From positions 1-64,000 of the forward strand of contig JALHMY010000041.1 of the NCBI GenBank assembly GCA_022843805.1: a stretch of 64,000 nucleotides of DNA, written 5' to 3'. A program made the position numbers and the translations under genes. The notes under the pieces were generated by a model that saw nothing but the letters and a program-made list of their open reading frames with translations, searched no databases and was not told the origin of the DNA. Shown here in pieces: positions 10,550 to 20,236 of the stretch. The DNA is from Fuerstiella sp. (GTDB lineage: Bacteria > Planctomycetota > Planctomycetia > Planctomycetales > Planctomycetaceae). How positions within the stretch are numbered: position 1 is the first letter of the stretch; every line of letters begins with the position of its first letter.

Positions 10550-11164
10550 ATGACAGTGCATACCACACCTTTAAGTCTGTTACAGAGAGTGCAGAACCCG
10601 GGTGACCAGGCATCCTGGCAAAGACTCGTGGATACCTACACGCCCTTTATTCGCCGTATTTTGCTGGCGCGAGGGATTCCTGTACAGGACGTCGACGACC
10701 TGGTTCAGGAGGTGTTGTCGGTCGTCGTCAAGGAAATTACGCAGTTCTCGCACAACGGGCGAAGCGGCGCATTTCGACTCTGGATCCGTAACATCCTGAC
10801 GAACCGACTTCGCAGATACCGTGAGATCAATGCCAGAAACGCTGTGGGAGTGGTAGCTACGGAGACCCTTGAGAATATCGAGGACCCGTGCAGCGACCTG
10901 TGCCGAATGTGGGATGAGGAGCATGATCACTGGATTACGCGACGGACGCTGGAGTTAATTCGATCGGAATTCTCTGTGTCGACCTGGGAAGCATTTTCTC
11001 AGCAGATTGTTTTCGGCCAATCTGCTGCACAGACTGCTGAGTTGCTTGGCATTTCCATCAATGCGGCCCTGATTTCGAAATCCCGGGTGCTTCGTCGATT
11101 GCGTGCCGAGGTTGCCGAACTGACTGAGGAGAGTGGCTTACCCCGACGCGAGAACGAAGCCTGA
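10550..11164 (+). CDS. ECF RNA polymerase sigma factor
   Basis: 204 residues. Region 2 has the YTPFIRRILLARGIPVQDVDDLVQ motif and the hydrophobic GAFRLWIRNILTNRLR segment. Region 4 is near the C-terminus (QSAAQTAELLGISINAALISKSRVLRRLR) and forms the -35-recognising helix-turn-helix. The length and the D-DLVQEVL motif fit planctomycete ECF groups that are paired with Ser/Thr kinases. It sits between the RND pump and a PEP-CTERM/kinase pair. No separate anti-sigma gene is present; the zinc-finger-bearing kinase two genes downstream is the obvious candidate partner. Confidence 0.93.
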   Translation: MTVHTTPLSLLQRVQNPGDQASWQRLVDTYTPFIRRILLARGIPVQDVDDLVQEVLSVVVKEITQFSHNGRSGAFRLWIRNILTNRLRRYREINARNAVGVVATETLENIEDPCSDLCRMWDEEHDHWITRRTLELIRSEFSVSTWEAFSQQIVFGQSAAQTAELLGISINAALISKSRVLRRLRAEVAELTEESGLPRRENEA

Positions 11165-11288: not shown

Positions 11289-11369
11289 GCTTTGGGATTT
11301 GGGAGGTTTGGTCACGAACAGTGAACCTTGCCATTCAGAATTTCGAGAATTGTCCTGCAGGGGGTCCAA

Positions 11370-12086
11370 ATGTTTTTTCAACGATTTCGTAGTACCGCAG
11401 CGATGCTGCTGTTTGTTGGGTGCTGGATTGTAATTTCCAATGCAGCCAGTGCCGGTTTGGTTGTCACCGGAAGCCAGTATAGCATGGTGAATCAGAACTT
11501 CCCCATTAACTTCACAGAGCTGGAAACGCTGACGCTTGATGGCTCTGTAAAATCACTGGGTGGAACCGATCTTACGGTTCGGGAAGTAATTACGCCGACT
11601 GCGAACGGGGAATGGCTGGAGTTTGTGTTTGAACGACCGGCGGCGCCACTTGCGGGAAATCCCAATCGATTCTGGAGAACCGACATTTTTGATATCAAAG
11701 TTTCCGAGCCCATCATTTTCGATGGGTTCCAGGTCTATTGGACCATTGATGGTGTTGCGGTAGCGAACCCCGGAACAGATCCATTCGGACTTGGAGATCC
11801 GATCGATAATTTGATTAACCCGTCTCTCGGGAAAGTCTATGGTGCCAGTTTTCAGGGATCACTGTTCAATTCGCCTCTGAACTTCTTCACCAGCCTGTCA
11901 CGTTACCGCTTTATTCTTGAAAACGCCGGTATGGATTCAGACGCCATTAACGGTTTTCGGCTTGGAGCGCATCTGTCGCGAGTGCAGTCTTCGGTGGTTC
12001 CGGAGCCGAATTCTCTGGCACTGTTTGGAACTGGTATTCTCGGAATTCTGATTAGCCTGCGTCGTCGTCGGAAGGAAATTGTCTGA
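11370..12086 (+). CDS. PEP-CTERM sorting-domain protein
   Basis: 238 residues from ATG 11370, which follows AGGGGGT at 11359-11365; the frame also extends upstream without support. It has a signal peptide (about residues 1-28, ending SNAASA), a secreted beta-rich middle of unknown function, and a classic PEP-CTERM tail: VPEPNSLALFGTGILGI followed by SLRRRRKE. Such proteins are exported, cut and anchored by an exosortase, which is not in this window. It lies between an ECF sigma factor and a Ser/Thr kinase, with 26 nt to the kinase, so these are probably one operon. Confidence 0.92.
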   Translation: MFFQRFRSTAAMLLFVGCWIVISNAASAGLVVTGSQYSMVNQNFPINFTELETLTLDGSVKSLGGTDLTVREVITPTANGEWLEFVFERPAAPLAGNPNRFWRTDIFDIKVSEPIIFDGFQVYWTIDGVAVANPGTDPFGLGDPIDNLINPSLGKVYGASFQGSLFNSPLNFFTSLSRYRFILENAGMDSDAINGFRLGAHLSRVQSSVVPEPNSLALFGTGILGILISLRRRRKEIV

Positions 12087-12112: not shown

Positions 12113-15100
12113 ATGAACCGTGAGCCGACAGCCGCCGGAATTGATACGTCTGCCCATCCCGGACCGGCCGAGTTGATTGATTTTTCGCTCGGCCGACTGG
12201 ATGAGTATCAGTCTGCGCTGATCGAAAGGCATATTGAGAGCTGCGAAGTCTGCAGTCAGCAGATGGCACTGGCGGCCGCGCAGGAAGATACTCTGGTTGC
12301 CTGTATTCGTGAAGCTCCGTTCGGCGGATCAGACAATGTTCGCGAATCACTTCGATTGCATGCGGGATACGAATTGCGGGAGATTATCGGTCAGGGTGGT
12401 ATGGCGGTTGTATGGAGGGCATACCATCGCACTCTCGGTCGAAGCGTTGCTTTGAAACAGATTCGATCGGGAACGGCCGCGGGAGCTGACGAAGTCGTTC
12501 GATTTCATCGAGAAGTTACGGCAGCTGCGCAACTGAGTCATCCGGGAATTGTGCAGGTTTTTGACTCAGGCGAGCAGGATGGTCAGCCATACCTGGCAAT
12601 GGAGTTGCTGGAAGGAGGAACTCTGGCCGAACGACTCCAGATGACACCGCTCGACAGTCGCGAAGCTGCCCGTTTGCTCGTGCGACTTTCGGACGCAGTC
12701 CAGTATGCTCACACCCGTGGTATCGTTCACCGTGACCTGAAGCCTGCCAATGTGCTGTTCACATCCCGACCATTATCCGGCGGACCGTTATCGATTGTTG
12801 AATGTGAACCAAAGCTGGCGGATTTCGGGCTTGCACGGCGTGATCATGACCCGGCCTATACACTCAGCGGGATAGCCGTGGGTACCCCTGGATACATGGC
12901 TCCGGAACAAACTGGCGATGGTCGTATTGCCGGGAAATCGGCAGATATCTATGGGCTGGGCGCAATACTTTATCAATGCCTCACCGGACGTCCGCCATTT
13001 GGTGCACCCGATGTTCTGGAAACACTGCGACAGGTCAGGGAAGACACTCCCGTTGCTCCGGTTCGACTGCAGCCTAAGTGTGATCGGGATGTGGAGACGA
13101 TTTGTCTGAAGTGTCTGAATAAAGAACCAGCAGCACGCTATTCCGCTGCCGCTGATCTTCGCGATGACCTGCAGCGATTTCTTGACGGTCATTCAATCTC
13201 CGCGAGGCGAACATCGGTGAGGGAACGGCTGTGGAAATGGTGCCGTCGCCGACCCGCTCAGGCTGCCCTTATCGCGGTGTCAGCAATATTGCTGATCGGT
13301 CTTTCAGCAGCAGGGTGGGTGGTGAGCGGCATCCTGGAAAAGAGTCTCGCAGAACGCACCAAAGCACAGCAGGAGGCGGAGACGCGGCTGCAGCAGATTC
13401 GCGACACCTGGAACGTGAACTTGTGGAATGTCGCCGAAGAAGCTCTGCTTAACGTGCCGGAGTCTCTCGGTATCCGCCGGCGACTACTGGAACTGGCAGT
13501 ACGCCAGTACGAAGATCTGTATCGTGGTCAGGACGCTGCAGACGCGGAAACACAGCACGCTCTCACGATCCTGCTGATTTCTCTTGCGGATGTCATGTCT
13601 GCTCAGGAAGCGAAAACGGAAGGGGATCTGGTCTATACCAAAAGTATCCGACTGAACGATGAGCTACTGCGGAATTATCCTGAGGACAACGACATTCGAC
13701 AGCAGGCCGGAGTCGGCAGGACCCATTATGGACTGCATTTGATTCGAACTGGTCGTGGCTCCGATGCAGTCCGTGTTCTTGCGATCGCTCAGGATATTCT
13801 TGAATCGCTGGTACAGCGCGATGTGAGCCGAACAGAGTGGCGGGGAGCGTTGGCGCAAAACAGCGATGCTGCTGCATCGGCTTCATCGGCAGCAGGATTG
13901 CCGGACCATGCGGTCGCTTTCCATCGGCGGGCCGTTGAACTTGCAAGGGAACTCGACTCCACACAGAATCCGGATGTCGTCATAAAACGCATGCTGACCT
14001 CAATATTCCACAACGCCGGGTTGTTTGAAGCGGACCCTGCCGAAAAAATCAGTCTGCTGCGGAAATCAATGTCGCTGGCAGAACAAATCGTCGCGGAACA
14101 TCCGGAGTCTTGGCAGGGCCGCGATATGCTCGCCAATATTCTGGTTTCACTGGGAAGTTCCCTGAACCAAACCAGTCCGGAAGAAGCCACATCGCAAATC
14201 GACAGAGCGCGAGCCCTCTACGAGGTGCTTGCGATTCAGTTCCCACGGATCCGCTCGCATCGCAGCAATGTTGCCCGATGTGATTACATGTTTGCGGTGA
14301 TGTGCCTGAACACCAGTCGTGACGATCTTGTCCTTGAACGAGTGCAGCGGTCCGCTCGCGCCTACCGGCAATTGCTTGATGAAATCCCGAGCGACGCAGC
14401 GATGGCCGTTCTTTTCACCGACGCACAAAACCTGCTGGGCCTGAAGCTGTCCTCTCAGAGTGATCATGAAGGTGCTGAGACATGCTACAAACAGAATATT
14501 GAGATACTTGAAGCTATCCTCAGAGAGAACGAAACTGACCTTGCGTGTCAGCGGAGTCTTGCTGCAAGCTGCCAGAATTACTCTGAACTGTTACGACTTT
14601 CGGGGCGAACTGAACAGGCGCTAAATTTCGCAAATCGAGCGGTGGAGCTTGGGGAGAGCGTCACTCAGGCGACCGGAGGACGCGAAAGTCCTTTTTCGCA
14701 CCTGATTCCCGCTCATGGCAGTCGAGCGCTCATTCTGCAACAGCTGAACCGACATGGTGAAGCCGTGATTAGCTGGGATCGTATCCTTCAGGTTTCCGGC
14801 AATTCGGCGGTGGCTTCATGGAGAATGTCGCTTCTCTTCTGCCTTGCCGGAGCAGACGATTATCAGCGGGCTGCGAAAGAAGCGGCAGCATTAACTCAGC
14901 GTACGGATATCTCTGCCGATGACCGATACAATCTTGCCTGTATTCTTTCACTGGCCGCTGATCATCTGAGGAAATCGCAGGGTGCCTCCGAACCTGTACC
15001 GTCTCGCCAGGACAGTGTCGAAATCGAACTGGCAATTCAGCAGCTTCAGCAATTGCATCGTGAGGGTTATTTTGAGAATCCGGCTCGCAATGCACACGCC

Positions 15101-15184
15101 CGAACTGATAAGGATCTTGAGCCTCTGCGTGGAGATTCTCGCTTCCGGCAAATCTTTCCGGATGATGATCCTCCCAGGCTCTAA
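12113..15184 (+). CDS. Ser/Thr protein kinase with N-terminal zinc finger and TPR-like repeats
   Basis: 1023 residues. Residues 20-55 include H40-x3-C44-x2-C47, an anti-sigma-type zinc finger. The kinase domain spans about 85-370: Gly loop IIGQGGMAVVWRA, catalytic Lys in VALKQI, HRDLKPANVLF, DFGLAR and GTPGYMAPEQ are all intact. A transmembrane helix lies near 383-405. The remaining ~600 residues are helical TPR-like repeats ending with a segment common in planctomycete kinases (YNLACILSLA, DLEPLRGDSRF). The active kinase would face the cytoplasm with TPRs on the far side of the membrane. With the finger and the ECF gene upstream, a role in controlling that sigma factor is a reasonable inference. 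Confidence 0.94.
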   Translation: MNREPTAAGIDTSAHPGPAELIDFSLGRLDEYQSALIERHIESCEVCSQQMALAAAQEDTLVACIREAPFGGSDNVRESLRLHAGYELREIIGQGGMAVVWRAYHRTLGRSVALKQIRSGTAAGADEVVRFHREVTAAAQLSHPGIVQVFDSGEQDGQPYLAMELLEGGTLAERLQMTPLDSREAARLLVRLSDAVQYAHTRGIVHRDLKPANVLFTSRPLSGGPLSIVECEPKLADFGLARRDHDPAYTLSGIAVGTPGYMAPEQTGDGRIAGKSADIYGLGAILYQCLTGRPPFGAPDVLETLRQVREDTPVAPVRLQPKCDRDVETICLKCLNKEPAARYSAAADLRDDLQRFLDGHSISARRTSVRERLWKWCRRRPAQAALIAVSAILLIGLSAAGWVVSGILEKSLAERTKAQQEAETRLQQIRDTWNVNLWNVAEEALLNVPESLGIRRRLLELAVRQYEDLYRGQDAADAETQHALTILLISLADVMSAQEAKTEGDLVYTKSIRLNDELLRNYPEDNDIRQQAGVGRTHYGLHLIRTGRGSDAVRVLAIAQDILESLVQRDVSRTEWRGALAQNSDAAASASSAAGLPDHAVAFHRRAVELARELDSTQNPDVVIKRMLTSIFHNAGLFEADPAEKISLLRKSMSLAEQIVAEHPESWQGRDMLANILVSLGSSLNQTSPEEATSQIDRARALYEVLAIQFPRIRSHRSNVARCDYMFAVMCLNTSRDDLVLERVQRSARAYRQLLDEIPSDAAMAVLFTDAQNLLGLKLSSQSDHEGAETCYKQNIEILEAILRENETDLACQRSLAASCQNYSELLRLSGRTEQALNFANRAVELGESVTQATGGRESPFSHLIPAHGSRALILQQLNRHGEAVISWDRILQVSGNSAVASWRMSLLFCLAGADDYQRAAKEAAALTQRTDISADDRYNLACILSLAADHLRKSQGASEPVPSRQDSVEIELAIQQLQQLHREGYFENPARNAHARTDKDLEPLRGDSRFRQIFPDDDPPRL

Positions 15185-15280: not shown

Positions 15281-15928
15281 TCAGGTTGCTGAAAATCGTT
15301 GTACGCCATCCGGCAAATGTGATCGCTCGATTCGGCGTTCCTCGATTCGGCCCTCACCGAGTACACCAGCAGCCAGCCCGATTGTCCCACCAAGAAAATG
15401 GGCCAGCGGGACCGGCGTAAAGGACAAATCGCTGACAAATATGTTCGTCTGGGTGAATGCCTCAAAGAGGGTTTTTCCGGCGAGGCCCACAAGCAGGATG
15501 CTGTGGATCGCTGTGCCTGTCGAATCCCGTTCACGTACTTTCTCCAGAAGAAGGCTTGAAACGAGCAGGCCAAACAGCGCCGTATCAAGTCCGCTCAGTC
15601 CTCGGTAGGAATCAATTTGTGGCAGGCCGTAAATAATACAGAGCGGAATGACTAAGGCTGAGACGAGCAGCGTCCATGCCAGACGCTGTTGACAGCGGAG
15701 TTCACAGCAGGCTCCCAGGAAAGCGAAGACAGCCACGTCCCAGACCAGGTGGTCAGTGGACCAGTGAAGCAAATGGCAGGTCAGAATGCGGTAGGATCCG
15801 ACAAACGTCAGATCATCAAAATGAAGTGAGAATGCTGGCTGAAGTGTGGTGGCAGTATGCAGCAGCAGCACCGCACAAGTCAGAAACAGAGTGATTGGTA
15901 TCTGTTTCAGGTTACTGATGATTTGCAT
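15281..15928 (-). CDS. rrtA: Rhombosortase (rhomboid-type GlyGly-CTERM protease)
   Basis: 215 residues from the ATG at 15928, preceded by AGGAAA; the frame extends further upstream without support. Five or six hydrophobic segments are visible. The rhomboid serine motif is in YRGLSGLDTALFG (Ser about residue 110) and the catalytic His is in PLAHFLGGTIG (about residue 174). The short size and the compact GLSG/H pair fit the rhombosortase subfamily rather than GlpG-type rhomboids. Rhombosortases are proposed to cleave proteins bearing a GlyGly-CTERM tail. The gene directly upstream on the same strand encodes a protein with such a tail, 138 nt away. Note that GSG is the usual core and here it is reached through R-G-L-S-G. 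Confidence 0.82.
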   Translation of the reverse strand: MQIISNLKQIPITLFLTCAVLLLHTATTLQPAFSLHFDDLTFVGSYRILTCHLLHWSTDHLVWDVAVFAFLGACCELRCQQRLAWTLLVSALVIPLCIIYGLPQIDSYRGLSGLDTALFGLLVSSLLLEKVRERDSTGTAIHSILLVGLAGKTLFEAFTQTNIFVSDLSFTPVPLAHFLGGTIGLAAGVLGEGRIEERRIERSHLPDGVQRFSAT

Positions 15929-16066
15929 GGCCGAAGTTTTCCTGTCAGGGCTTGTCGATCCCGAAAAGGCTGGCGAATCGTGGTGGAAGTGGGGACTGTG
16001 AGAAACAGTCCCCCGTGACATGTCGAATGAGCTTCATCCGTGATGCGTAACTGTCGTCCCAGGCAA

Positions 16067-18280
16067 TCATTCGTGTCCTGCGGAGTTGCGACGTCGCCTT
16101 CGTTCTCGCATCGCGGCACCAAAGAGACCTGCTGCCAGAAGGCCCGTGACGGGATCGATCGCACCGCCACCGCCACCGCCGCCACCACCGCCACCGCTGA
16201 ATTCTCGAGTAGAGCTGTTTTCTGACGGGGAACCCCACTGCAGATCGGTGGGTGTTGCTGGTGCCTGAGAGCTTGGACTGGCAGTATTGATTGCCGGAGC
16301 AATGCTGTCGGGACCTGACTGCGGCTGAGGAGTCTCGGATTTTGACGTCAGCTGTGGTTCCTGCGGACCGAGCTTCGCAAGAGACTCATCACGAAGGGTC
16401 TGAAGCTGTTCCTGCAGGCGGGCACGAGCGGCCTCATCTCGCTTTACTCGAGTGACATTACGCCGTTCAATGGCCCATCGCTGAAACTCGGCATCGTTCT
16501 CCAGAACAATGAATGAAGCATACTCTCCGGCGATTGAGTATCCCTCACACAGACTGACGATCTTTTGAACGGATGCCGGGGATTCACCGTTCTGTCGAAT
16601 TTCTCCCATGAGCTCCTGGACCCGCTGAAATGCCCACATTCTTTCGATTTCAGAATTATTGGCTTCCTGCTCCGGCAATGTGACCTGAACCGTTTGAGTG
16701 GTGGGCTGGCCCATGACTTCGGCCTGAACTGTAATGCTGGCCGTGCCCGGTCTTTTGTAACGTCCGAAGAGCCGCAATGGTGAGCCGTAGAACAGATCGG
16801 GCATTGTTCCCGGCGTGATATCATATGTTTCCACGCCATCGACTGTGATACGGACGCTCGTGGCGACTGGTCGCATCAGCTTGCGTCGAAATGCCTGAGA
16901 CTGCCGATCGAAATCATCCTCCTGAGAAACAAAAGCGGCCAGCCCCCCTGCCCCTTCAGCAAGTTGTTTCAGGAGCGGCCGATTTACTTCGTTGCCGATG
17001 CCAATGCAGAAGACTCGTGTGCCTGAGGGTGCTGCTGAGATGAGCGTGAGCAGTTCCGATTGTTCTTTGTTTTCCGTCATGCCGTCCGACAGCAGGACAA
17101 CATTGAGCGGACGGTCGTCATTCTTATACTTGTAGGCGGTCACTACTGCGGGGCGAAGCACGGTACCCCCTCTGGCCTTCTGAGAAAGCAGAAACTCCTG
17201 AGCCGACGCTTTTGACTCGTCGCTGACTTCTGTGATCTGGCCGAAGTGCATCTGAGGCGTATTGTTGAACGTGATGACTTCAAAGCGATCTTCTTTACCA
17301 AGTGCGTTCACAAATGACCCGACTGTATTTCGGGATTGTGTCAGTTTGCCATCGTTGCTCATGCTGCCCGAGATGTCCACAACAAAAACATAGTCCATGC
17401 CGGCGCCATATTCTTCGAGTTCCCTGCCAGCGGTCATTGTCAGCATGAAGTAACCGTCTTCGCCTTTCTGCTTTGAGGCGATCAGGTCAATTCCCGTGCG
17501 AGCTCGCTGAGTATCAAATGCGATCACCAGATCTCGGCTCAGGTCGCCCGCCTCCACTTCCATGCTGGCTCGGGCGTAGTTCTCCGAATGATTCACGATC
17601 ACGAAGCTGTCTTCGTGTGACGGACTGAACATCCTGCTCAGCGGCACTTCACTCTTCACATCCAGTGTGAAGGCGAACTTTCCGGTTGTCGACTGATTGA
17701 TTCCGGTGCGAGTCGTTGTCGCAAGAGGATACACGTACGTTGCATTGTCGTGATCGAAATCCAGTTGCTGGTAATAGGTGATTTTAATGTGCTGCTCAGC
17801 GCCGGCCGGAATCGGAAAGATTCGCAGTTCAAAAGTCTTGTAGTCAACCTGTTCAAGCAGGCCGGGATCCCGTTTGACCACCTTGTAACTTTCGTAGATC
17901 TGACGAGCTCGTTTCTTCTCCACCACCTCACCAATCATTTCCTTCCCATTGATGATCATGCTGAAGTTGCTGACGCTTGCGCCGTTCGGGACAGGAAACG
18001 TGTACAGCGCCTCGACAATACGTTGCTCAGTGTTCCGAAAGACCTGACGAATCTCCGTCACGGCGATTCCATTGTTGATGATCACACTGACATCGTGTTC
18101 TCTGATCTCCAGCACACCGCCAAACCCTCCATCTGCAATCAATAATCCGGATGCCTCAGCGGCATTTTGCTGGAATGCTGCGGCAAGTCCCAGAAGTGCA
18201 ACCACAAACAGAAATGGACGATGGCCCAATCTGGGGACCTGCAGTCTTTTGTCGATTTGCAATGTCGCGATCTGATTCAT
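16067..18280 (-). CDS. VIT and VWA domain surface protein with GlyGly-CTERM-like tail
   Basis: 737 residues. The ATG at 18280 has an excellent AGGAGAT site 5-6 nt upstream. A signal peptide spans about 1-43 (LFVVALLGLAAAF...AEASG). The VIT domain spans about 46-175, and the VWA domain about 290-470 with a complete MIDAS start DISGSMS. A linker rich in Pro, Ser and Gln leads to a run of 11 Gly, then DPVTGLLAAGLFGAAM and an Arg cluster RERRRRR. That Gly-run, hydrophobic helix and basic end is the GlyGly-CTERM plan. VIT/VWA proteins are also known as dedicated sortase targets in marine proteobacteria; here a rhombosortase is the neighbour. Its role is probably surface adhesion or matrix interaction. 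Confidence 0.9.
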   Translation of the reverse strand: MNQIATLQIDKRLQVPRLGHRPFLFVVALLGLAAAFQQNAAEASGLLIADGGFGGVLEIREHDVSVIINNGIAVTEIRQVFRNTEQRIVEALYTFPVPNGASVSNFSMIINGKEMIGEVVEKKRARQIYESYKVVKRDPGLLEQVDYKTFELRIFPIPAGAEQHIKITYYQQLDFDHDNATYVYPLATTTRTGINQSTTGKFAFTLDVKSEVPLSRMFSPSHEDSFVIVNHSENYARASMEVEAGDLSRDLVIAFDTQRARTGIDLIASKQKGEDGYFMLTMTAGRELEEYGAGMDYVFVVDISGSMSNDGKLTQSRNTVGSFVNALGKEDRFEVITFNNTPQMHFGQITEVSDESKASAQEFLLSQKARGGTVLRPAVVTAYKYKNDDRPLNVVLLSDGMTENKEQSELLTLISAAPSGTRVFCIGIGNEVNRPLLKQLAEGAGGLAAFVSQEDDFDRQSQAFRRKLMRPVATSVRITVDGVETYDITPGTMPDLFYGSPLRLFGRYKRPGTASITVQAEVMGQPTTQTVQVTLPEQEANNSEIERMWAFQRVQELMGEIRQNGESPASVQKIVSLCEGYSIAGEYASFIVLENDAEFQRWAIERRNVTRVKRDEAARARLQEQLQTLRDESLAKLGPQEPQLTSKSETPQPQSGPDSIAPAINTASPSSQAPATPTDLQWGSPSENSSTREFSGGGGGGGGGGGAIDPVTGLLAAGLFGAAMRERRRRRNSAGHE

Positions 18281-18328
18281 TGTTATCTCCTGTCGGAAAG
18301 AATGGGGAAACCGAACCAGAAGGCCAAA

Positions 18329-18344
18329 AGCACATGTAGTGCCA
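18329..18344 (-). promoter_or_regulatory. Sigma-54 (-24/-12) promoter for the VIT/VWA-rhombosortase unit
   Basis: On the minus strand TGGCACTACATGTGCT fits the consensus TGGCAC-N5-TTGC with the invariant GG and GC exactly 10 nt apart. The expected start point is near 18318, leaving a ~38-nt leader that contains the AGGAGAT site of the VIT/VWA gene. The adjacent divergent gene is a sigma-54 activator. Confidence 0.75.
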
Positions 18345-18424
18345 AACTGAAGTGGTTGTTGTTAAGTCGTTTTATGTAAACGAGTTGTGGCGAATTAAGG
18401 AAATGTGCAAGCGTTGGTGGAGGA

Positions 18425-18475
18425 TTCCTAAAGTGCATTGGATGTGCATGTGATGTACACTGGATGTATGGCCTG
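18425..18475. promoter_or_regulatory. Possible activator-binding repeats between divergent genes
   Basis: Two TGGATGT elements about 22 bp apart sit inside small dyads: TGCA-N7-TGCA at 18434-18448 and TACA-N5-TGTA at 18456-18468. They lie roughly 100-135 bp upstream of the sigma-54 promoter, where enhancer sites for such activators usually lie. This is inference from position and symmetry only. Confidence 0.3.
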
Positions 18476-18518
18476 CGGTGCTGGGTGGAGGATGAGGATC
18501 ATTTTGGAGATCGGTGTT

Positions 18519-20084
18519 ATGGGAATGATCGCAGAATCGGAGATGGGGTTTGTGCAGGCGGTCAGCAGGCTGAGTGACGCGAATCCGTTCCTGCCGCAGC
18601 GAATCGAACTGGAACGTGCGGCATTGGGAGATGAGTTTGTCGCGGAGAAGGAGCCCTACTGGAGTCTCACGCCGGATCAGACCATTCAGCGACGCGGGAA
18701 CCTCATCAAAATTGTCGACAGGGCTCGGATCGTGGCAGAATCCCTTCGCCAAAAATTACATGACGGGCAGTCAGCAGCCGACAGGCAGCTGGAGTTGTAC
18801 GATGATCTGGTGCTCTACATTTTGTTCTATGAGCAGCTGGAAGTCTGGGGCCAGCGAGGAACCACTGCAGCAGAGAGTGAGTCGCGGGATTTGCAGGCAT
18901 GGAAACGCTATTCACACGAATTCGATTACTGGATGAATGTGCCGGAGAAGATTCTGCCTTCCGCTGATCAGAAGGTGCATCTGTTTGGGGTCTTCTTTCA
19001 GATTTATCGAGCCTTCTTTAATATCTTCGAGTGTGTGATCGGACAGTCGCTTCCGACTGCCAAACTTCGTGCCAGAATCTGGCAGTCAATTTTTACGCAT
19101 GATCTGAGACGGTACCGGCGAAGTCTGTATCAATCGCTTTCTCAGGTGACCACACTGATCAGCGGTCCCAGTGGAAGTGGCAAGGAGCTGGTTGCACAGG
19201 CGATTGGAATGTCGCGCTTTATTCCCTTTGAACCTCGGAAGGAAAAATTCGCCACTCATTTTGCCGACAGTTATTTTGCCATCAACATCTCGGCGTTCTC
19301 CAAAAATCTGATTGAGTCCGAATTGTTTGGCCATGCGAAAGGCGCGTTTACGGGAGCTTCGGGTGCAAGGACAGGCTGGCTGGAGACCTGCGGAATGTAT
19401 GGCTCAATACTTCTGGACGAAATCGGTGAGCTGGATATCACGACGCAGGTAAAGCTGCTTCGGGTTTTGCAGAATCGTCAGTATCAGAGAATTGGCGAGA
19501 GTCAGATTCGTGGCTTTCAGGGTAAGTTTATTGCCGCAACAAATCGGGACCTGCGAAGAGAAATTGAAGCAGGAAAGTTTCGAGAGGATTTGTATTACCG
19601 GCTTTGTTCGGATGTCATTGAAACGCCTTCACTCGTTTCACAGGTCCGGGACAATTCCGAGTTTCTGGGGAATCTGGTCGCTCATCTTGCCGGTCGTATT
19701 GCGCCGGAAGAACAGCAGACACTGACCGATGACGTCATGAAATGGCTGAAGCGGGGCTTACCGGCCGAGTATGCGTGGCCTGGGAATATCCGGGAACTTG
19801 AGCAGTGCATACGCAACATCATGATCTGCGGGGAGTATCGACCACCAGCCAGTGCTTCAGTCGGCCAGACGGCCAGCTATTCGGCTGATGCACTTGCGCT
19901 GCTTGACCAGATGCAGTCGTTCCGTCTGACCGCCAGCGAGGTGCTGAGTCATTACTGCAGAATGGCGTACCGAAAAACGAAGAGTTTTGAAAAGACCGCG
20001 AAACTCTTACAGCTTGATCGCCGCACCGTCCGGGCAAAAGTGGATCTGGCGGAGGGTGTTGATTCAGCGGACGATTCTGCGTAG
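18519..20084 (+). CDS. Sigma-54-dependent transcriptional activator without receiver domain
   Basis: 521 residues from ATG 18519 (GGAGA at 18506-18510); the frame is open from a TTG at 18438. The first ~200 residues are helical and not recognised; no receiver, GAF or PAS motif is seen. The AAA+ domain has Walker A SGPSGSGKELV, the sigma-54 contact loop GAFTGA in GHAKGAFTGASGAR, Walker B ILLDEIGELD, and the arginine region FREDLYYRL. The end has a Fis-type helix-turn-helix (FEKTAKLLQLDRRTVRAKVDL). It is divergent from the VIT/VWA gene, whose promoter is of the sigma-54 type. Its stop codon lies within the inverted-repeat element that follows. Confidence 0.93.
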   Translation: MGMIAESEMGFVQAVSRLSDANPFLPQRIELERAALGDEFVAEKEPYWSLTPDQTIQRRGNLIKIVDRARIVAESLRQKLHDGQSAADRQLELYDDLVLYILFYEQLEVWGQRGTTAAESESRDLQAWKRYSHEFDYWMNVPEKILPSADQKVHLFGVFFQIYRAFFNIFECVIGQSLPTAKLRARIWQSIFTHDLRRYRRSLYQSLSQVTTLISGPSGSGKELVAQAIGMSRFIPFEPRKEKFATHFADSYFAINISAFSKNLIESELFGHAKGAFTGASGARTGWLETCGMYGSILLDEIGELDITTQVKLLRVLQNRQYQRIGESQIRGFQGKFIAATNRDLRREIEAGKFREDLYYRLCSDVIETPSLVSQVRDNSEFLGNLVAHLAGRIAPEEQQTLTDDVMKWLKRGLPAEYAWPGNIRELEQCIRNIMICGEYRPPASASVGQTASYSADALALLDQMQSFRLTASEVLSHYCRMAYRKTKSFEKTAKLLQLDRRTVRAKVDLAEGVDSADDSA

Positions 20085-20236
20085 TGCTCTGTCAGGATAA
20101 ATAGTTCGGGCTGGAGGTAGTGGATCTTGCTAAAGATCCCCTGGCCGGAAGTAGTGGATCTTGCTAAAGATCCCCTGGCTGCAGGACCTTTGGCAAGGTC
20201 CACTACCCGAAATTCAAAGCACGACAGAGCAGTAGT
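20081..20236. repeat. Terminal-inverted-repeat element 1 with hairpin cargo
   Basis: Left end GTAGTGCTCTGTCA (20081-20094) and right end GACAGAGCAGTAGTC (20222-20236) are inverted copies. Inside are two 29-bp units at 20117-20145 and 20151-20179, each a hairpin GGATCTT-gcta-AAGATCC, and a third inverted relative, GGACCTTTGGCAAGGTCC. A second element with the same ends but different cargo lies at 58076-58186. The left end overlaps the stop of the sigma-54 activator. The hairpins may also terminate transcription from both sides. Confidence 0.85.

Follow-up and report, generated by a model that had tools for sequence, protein, structure and literature searches.

A rhombosortase-like rhomboid and its single VIT/VWA partner beside a candidate sigma-54 switch in a planctomycete genome

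The planctomycete Fuerstiella sp. (GenBank assembly GCA_022843805.1) carries, on the first 64,000 nucleotides of contig JALHMY010000041.1 (the stretch analysed here, called the window), a compact group of three genes. A rhomboid protease gene stands directly downstream of a gene for a VIT/VWA protein on the same strand, a gene for a sigma-54 activator is divergent from the pair, and a site with GG-N10-GC spacing lies between the divergent genes (Table 1). An earlier note, made from the letters alone, had named these parts, and they were recovered as it described them: the activator has no receiver domain among its Pfam hits, the GG-N10-GC site is in place on the minus strand, the VIT/VWA reading frame ends in eleven glycines, a hydrophobic stretch and an arginine cluster, and the small rhomboid that follows carries the GLSG and PLAHF motifs. 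The enhancer-like repeats lie nearer to the activator gene than TGGCACTACATGTGCT does within the divergent intergenic region. Judged by the sequence comparisons described below, the locus is real and conserved, beyond chance.

Table 1 Features of the locus (positions in the window; ORF, open reading frame; HMM, hidden Markov model)
Feature	Position	Strand	Description
Rhomboid ORF	15281-16021	-	Contains YRGLSGLD and PLAHF; start more probably at the ATG at 15928
Rhombosortase-like rhomboid protease core, 216 aa			Ser113/His178 dyad; basis: HMM match, alignment, tree and structure model
VIT/VWA ORF, 737 aa, predicted secreted	16067-18280	-	N-terminal signal-like segment; Pfam VIT 1.9e-30, VWA_3 3.5e-20
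C-terminal sorting tail of the VIT/VWA protein	16067-16195	-	11 Gly, AIDP, short hydrophobic stretch, Arg cluster
Putative -24/-12 sigma-54 promoter TGGCACTACATGTGCT	18329-18344	-	GG-N10-GC; expected transcription start about 18318, toward the VIT/VWA gene
Candidate enhancer (activator-binding) site	18433-18467		Three 13-nt copies at 11-bp spacing, from a repeat search: GTGCATTGGATGT / GTGCATGTGATGT / GTACACTGGATGT
Sigma-54 activator ORF	18438-20084	+	Listed from TTG 18438; likely start ATG 18519; Sigma54_activat PF00158 1e-45

The pairing of rhomboid and VIT/VWA gene recurs across genomes. A profile built from five rhomboids and searched against 397 genomes of the class found 35 family genes in 33 genomes, all at E<=6e-42, and in each of the 32 testable loci (the remaining three being cut by contig ends) a VIT/VWA gene with a Gly-rich tail lies directly upstream on the same strand, either overlapping or separated by at most 156 bp. 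A scan of named genomes yielded 146 relatives; the 80 best were retained, partly from the same genomes as the class set, and a VIT/VWA gene stands upstream in all 72 of their uncut loci, directly adjacent in 68 and 435-624 bp away in the other 4. By their record titles, some metagenome titles among them looking unreliable, these relatives belong to Planctomycetes, Phycisphaerae, Verrucomicrobia and other groups; the Rhodopirellula rubra locus belongs to the same rhomboid-VIT/VWA family. Since the scan pattern, YRGLSG[ILV]D[TS][AG], itself fixes these positions, the named set cannot show active-site variation.

The tail follows the enzyme. With up to 16 candidates scored per genome, 31 of the 33 enzyme genomes match a tail profile at E<=2.2e-8 and 0 of the 364 without the enzyme do; weaker matches (3.1e-5 to 7.0e-4) occurred in nine genomes lacking the enzyme. 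The two enzyme genomes that gave no tail hit (G255 and G366) have the start of the enzyme gene no more than about 200 bases from the edge of a contig. G347 and G382, which carry two enzymes each, also have two tails each. The search for further tails in the Fuerstiella genome, which the earlier note had proposed, returned the window tail at 1.3e-19 and a next match at 0.35, with 150 of 195 candidates scored; its view of one enzyme serving one substrate agrees with this single tail and with the co-occurrence across genomes. The DNA pattern of the tail was found at one other place in the genome, at residue 500 of a 560-aa reading frame, with no membrane segment after it.

Together with the rhombosortase-like gene, the window tail has the layout of a GlyGly-CTERM signal, with a Gly-rich motif, a transmembrane segment and a basic cluster at the extreme C-terminus. 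The consensus of the tail family is GGG-A-[IVLF]-D-P-x-[TS], with Asp in 87 and Pro in 90 of 105 tails. In Vibrio cholerae, the available text of PMC11389362 describes a helix-breaking Pro in the VesB tail as needed, a requirement that the conserved DP of the present tails fits. Of 41 tails, 28 match TIGR03867 (MprA_tail), a GlyGly-CTERM variant, at E<=10 and at best 4.3e-7; the tail from the window is not one of them. Two other sorting routes were tried for the VIT/VWA protein and rejected. As a marine sortase target (TIGR03788) it scores 245.6 bits where 551.65 are needed and it has no LPXTG; as for exosortase processing, the genome does encode PEP-CTERM proteins, but the window tail has no TIGR02595 match.

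The rhomboid shows a rhomboid fold with a Ser/His dyad. Its structure model (predicted local distance difference test, pLDDT, 92.5) matches GlpG at E 5.2e-5, and the catalytic S113 and H178 are invariant in the alignment of 35 family rhomboids. In the phylogenetic tree these 35 make up a single clade (98/98) next to four proteobacterial sequences that are rhombosortases or near relatives of them (98/91), as sister and not nested, and the 35 and the four together are separate from 15 other planctomycete rhomboids (100/97). One of the four proteobacterial rows is annotated rrtA, two are above the TIGR03902 cut-off and one is from Variovorax. All 35 family enzymes match TIGR03902, the rhombosortase model, at E<=1e-5, and a search of E. 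coli with the rhomboid gene of a relative gave no match.

The divergent gene encodes the likely switch. By its AAA+ sigma-54 interaction domain, and by the GAFTGA motif within it, the product is a bacterial enhancer-binding protein as judged from sequence; its C-terminal part is presumably a helix-turn-helix. For the first 200 or so residues no Pfam family scores at E<=0.1. Their model is all helical (pLDDT 89.8) and has no significant match in the PDB (best E 0.66); in a second structure comparison 14-3-3 proteins ranked first with Z of about 6, which is within the chance range for helical models. The genome contains rpoN once (3.2e-61). Scans for terminators and sigma-70 promoters gave about chance numbers.

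TGGCACTACATGTGCT scores 10/12 as a -24/-12 site. The window holds 43 sites of at least 9/12 versus about 30 expected in shuffles, and 4 occurrences of the strict GG-N10-GC pattern versus 0.7 expected, so that taken alone the putative promoter is only moderately unusual; its significance lies in its position and conservation. Among loci from activator-bearing genomes, 13 of 19 have a site of at least 9/12 ahead of the VIT/VWA gene, versus 1 of 14 from genomes lacking the activator (Fisher 9e-4), random windows giving 8.8%; the count left out four pieces, three without the VIT/VWA gene at contig ends and one without the anchor motif. The lone activator-less locus with a site is from an assembly 88% complete (G356). 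Measured from the conserved point at which the mature VIT/VWA protein begins, the sites of activator genomes lie 141-196 nt upstream, a distance that varies little between families. Among the named loci, sites of at least 10/12 are found in 14 of 25 linked loci, several of them perfect 12/12, versus 3 of 16 unlinked ones (p 0.025; random windows 1.8%), a count that left out 27 of 68 loci with no anchor or less than 300 bp upstream and in which several 'unlinked' loci come from genomes with an activator elsewhere.

An enhancer-like element accompanies the linked activator as well. The ATGTAC/GTACAT motif, learned on 12 linked loci, is present in 12/12 of them (background 2.5%) and, in the window, at 18453; among held-out linked loci, which share no 20-mer with the training loci, it is present in 17 of 31 versus 61 of 1640 background windows (3.7%). 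This learned and held-out comparison is the fair test, because an earlier element motif had been chosen by eye from the same loci. Scored with that eye-chosen motif, an element of at least 10 was found in 27 of 33 linked loci, 0 of 13 without the activator and 3 of 13 undetermined ones (background 2.5%).

The activator belongs to a wider family. A search with its N-terminal domain found members in 49 of the 397 genomes, namely 18 of the 33 with the enzyme versus 31 of the 364 others. Its gene is linked to the VIT/VWA gene at the same locus, in divergent orientation, in 12 of the 33 enzyme genomes (in two of these the contig stops short of the rhomboid, and in one a further gene intervenes) and in 41 of the 72 uncut named loci, whose genomes are partly shared with the class set. 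Members beside other divergent genes (36 loci, L043-L050 and L142-L170) have a facing site of at least 9/12 in 26 of 36, and the ATGTAC element is present in 13 of these 36 versus all 12 of the VIT/VWA-linked loci. The six of these 36 divergent neighbours that were scanned comprise two M20 peptidases, a radical-SAM/HemN-like protein, a ceramidase-like protein, a P450 and a large protein without a Pfam match. The Fuerstiella genome has a second member (G000:C78:357-2003, locus L044), 43% identical to the first; its divergent neighbour encodes an M20 peptidase and has a facing site of 10/12. These arrangements suggest that the family is a general design of local switches, which supports reading the activator at the window locus as a switch.

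We consider the locus to be probably a self-contained, inducible, single-cargo surface display module made up of an activator switch, a VIT/VWA cargo and a dedicated rhomboid. The helical N-terminal domain of the activator would sense a signal, and the activator would bind the repeated TGTACAT-type site upstream. Its AAA+ ATPase would then open sigma-54 polymerase at TGGCACTACATGTGCT, turning on the VIT/VWA and rhomboid genes as an operon. A signal peptide would export the VIT/VWA protein and the tail would hold it in the inner membrane, where the dedicated rhomboid may cut at or near the junction of Gly and AIDP, the Asp-Pro being expected to break the helix there. By analogy with VesB of V. 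cholerae, the new C-terminus would probably be modified and the protein passed to, and anchored at, the cell surface.

Several observations weigh against this account, and some of those on the enzyme and its tail would suit an ordinary housekeeping rhomboid next to a protein with a plain membrane-anchor tail, a gene pair that is conserved but functionally loose. The window rhomboid scores 77.5-78.5 bits against TIGR03902, under the curated cut-off of 84, which a relative passes in 3 of 59 genomes. At Ser+4 all 35 rhomboids of the alignment have Thr or Ser (Thr in the window protein) and none the diagnostic His of SGMLH, a residue that virtually all rhombosortases have (PMC3237569, available text), while Ser+3 is Asp in 34 of 35. 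The GlpG model is weakly matched by 22 of the 35. As for the tail, TIGR03501 (GlyGly-CTERM) matches neither the window protein nor any of the 41 tails, HMMER filters dropping most weak matches, so the GlyGly-CTERM label given in the earlier note was not borne out by the model; in the Fuerstiella genome this model gave two sub-threshold matches, both in reading frames with PEP-CTERM-like tails as judged by eye. MYXO-CTERM (TIGR03901) is matched by 19 of 41 sister tails (best 4.5e-4) and PEP-CTERM by 7 of 41; the window tail itself has no TIGR03901 match and no Cys. Furthermore, 27 of the 41 rows of the tail profile come from these loci, so that its positives, though not its 364 negatives, are partly by construction. 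The housekeeping explanation is nonetheless very improbable in our judgement, given a clade separate from ordinary rhomboids, adjacency to the VIT/VWA gene in all 32 testable class loci and an upstream position in all uncut named ones, tail-enzyme co-occurrence, the DP helix-breaker conserved in the tail, the family-wide resemblance to TIGR03902 and the likeness of most sister tails to TIGR03867. Sequence evidence makes the rhomboid a sister variant of rhombosortases and not a plain member, a label chosen because it falls below the TIGR03902 cut-off and has no diagnostic His despite grouping with rhombosortases; the identity proposed earlier stands as to clade and not as to score or active site. 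Separately, a rhombosortase above the cut-off on the megaplasmid of Cupriavidus metallidurans CH34 (L256 3-3043) has Tyr at Ser+4, and it directly follows an ExeM/NucH nuclease whose tail, GSMDPFTWLT...RRR, resembles the GGGAIDP tail.

What happens to the cargo after cleavage is the second point at which the display module may be doubted. The type II secretin call in the Fuerstiella genome is below its cut-off (275 of 351 bits), and the rhomboid might shed the VIT/VWA protein, its cut freeing a soluble product into the medium or periplasm with no anchoring. The missing secretin above the cut-off would suit shedding, as would the long Gly linker and the description, in the available text of PMC11389362, of GlpG cleavage of VesB yielding soluble protein. 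The gene pairing by itself does not discriminate shedding from anchoring. We regard shedding as unlikely, the enzyme grouping with rhombosortases, whose studied member gives surface retention (PMC6219818, available text).

Further reservations concern the switch of the proposed display module. The earlier note had given the locus its own sigma-54 on-switch; promoter and element are indeed conserved beside a linked activator, but no linked activator was found in 21 of the 33 enzyme genomes and none anywhere in 15 of the 33, which places the switch outside the core module. In some of the 21 the view is short: the contig ends first for G255 and for one of two G382 copies, and G330 and G215 show just 335-418 bp. 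The comparison of the locus across planctomycetes that the note had suggested accordingly upheld the VIT/VWA pairing, the linked activator being common but not universal. Three linked loci (G079, G170 and G159) have no -24/-12 site of at least 8/12, and G188 reaches just 8/12. In the named set at the looser threshold of 9/12, the difference between linked (17 of 25) and unlinked (6 of 16) loci was not significant (p 0.11). The element reaches a score of at least 10 in just 1 of 7 unlinked loci of activator-bearing genomes, which makes control in trans doubtful there; the sequences suggest trans control by unlinked activators only weakly. The association statistics for promoter and element ignore kinship, and a check on starred branches of the tree gave 4 independent pairs for the promoter and 2 for the element, agreeing wherever they differ and too few for a test.

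With the enhancer-like element close to the activator gene, and with 4 of 48 family activators having a site of at least 9/12 on the strand opposite the divergent gene, the activator could instead control only other targets, either its own gene or a remote regulon, with the -24/-12 site and the repeats forming part of its own promoter region. This we hold to be quite improbable: 34 of the 48 have such a site facing the divergent gene, such sites keep much the same spacing from the VIT/VWA start in different families, and where no activator was found both site and element (of at least 10) are nearly or wholly missing, in 1 of 14 and 0 of 13 loci respectively.

Around the module the window holds other features. 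A small repeat element lies just past the activator gene (20109-20207), with two 34-bp units in tandem and, after them, an inverted copy of 24 bp (88%). On the other side, a large Ser/Thr protein kinase gene with weak TPR matches (12113-15184) is convergent with the rhomboid gene and is preceded by a reading frame (10550-11164) that, from reading its sequence, we take to be sigma-factor-like. A PEP-CTERM protein gene (11328-12086) lies 3 kb from the rhomboid, so that 7 kb contain two distinct kinds of C-terminal sorting signal.

Taken more broadly, the data can be read as portable switch cassettes spread across the Planctomycetes-Verrucomicrobia-Chlamydiae (PVC) group, each a local activator with a new helical sensor domain, a TGTACAT enhancer and a -24/-12 site. 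One branch would have been joined to a strictly one-to-one display module, in which a rhomboid with a non-rhombosortase active-site neighbourhood (Asp at Ser+3, Thr or Ser at Ser+4) reads GGGA[IVLF]DP, giving inducible, single-substrate intramembrane sorting. For this wider proposal we see the case for and against as evenly poised. An enzyme, one substrate and a candidate switch within 5 kb, recurring (by record titles) in planctomycetes, Verrucomicrobia and relatives, offer a single cargo without redundancy, so that induction, cleavage and localisation become testable together. The natural active-site variants provide a route to what sets rhombosortase specificity, and the activator family points to signals used widely across these phyla.

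The rhomboid-cargo pair is already known in kind since 2011. Haft and Varghese list in Table 3 of PMC3237569 one GlyGly-CTERM gene adjoining a rhombosortase in Rhodopirellula baltica SH1 and in Opitutus terrae, and the legend to their Figure 3C gives VIT/VWA homologues with GlyGly-CTERM, PEP-CTERM or LPXTG tails; the earlier note's statement that it knew of no description of such an arrangement in planctomycetes does not hold against these parts of that paper. Because an R. rubra locus is in the family described here, the pair of R. baltica very probably belongs to the same system. Their discussion also proposes that rhombosortase expression may be regulated, the word 'sigma' being absent from the main text, and we found no paper joining rhombosortase with sigma-54 in the open-licence literature. 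Apparently new, within the literature searched, are the sigma-54 switch, an activator family with an unmatched helical N-terminal domain, and the variant enzyme and tail.

Compared with the dedicated systems of PMC3237569, as far as its available text presents them, the present one shares a single rhomboid beside a single tailed protein, the tripartite tail and VIT/VWA homologues that bear such tails. It differs in its separate enzyme clade and active-site residues at Ser+3 and Ser+4, in a tail motif GGGA[IVLF]DP where those systems have SGGS, in a VIT/VWA cargo at every testable locus and in a sigma-54 activator that is often part of the locus. In V. cholerae, rhombosortase cleaves VesB, whose end is modified and which is kept at the surface (PMC6219818, available text), and the chemistry predicted here resembles that of VesB and RssP (PMC6219818, PMC11389362, PMC13393428) in tail cleavage, helix-breaking Pro and surface retention. 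RssP is one enzyme for six cargoes, with no neighbouring regulator mentioned in the available text of these papers; here there is one cargo, and cleavage is a prediction. A VIT/VWA protein served by a sorting enzyme of its own next to it is also found in marine proteobacteria, as the sortase target TIGR03788 and the sortase TIGR03784, but the window protein has no LPXTG and no sortase adjoins it. Lastly, sigma-54 also governs sorting in the PEP-CTERM/exosortase system with PrsK/PrsR (PMC1569441, available text), where a motif for the activator lies upstream and a -24/-12 site is present; PrsK/PrsR, however, is a two-component system whose response regulator presides over many cargoes, whereas the module proposed here would have a receiver-less local activator and a single cargo.

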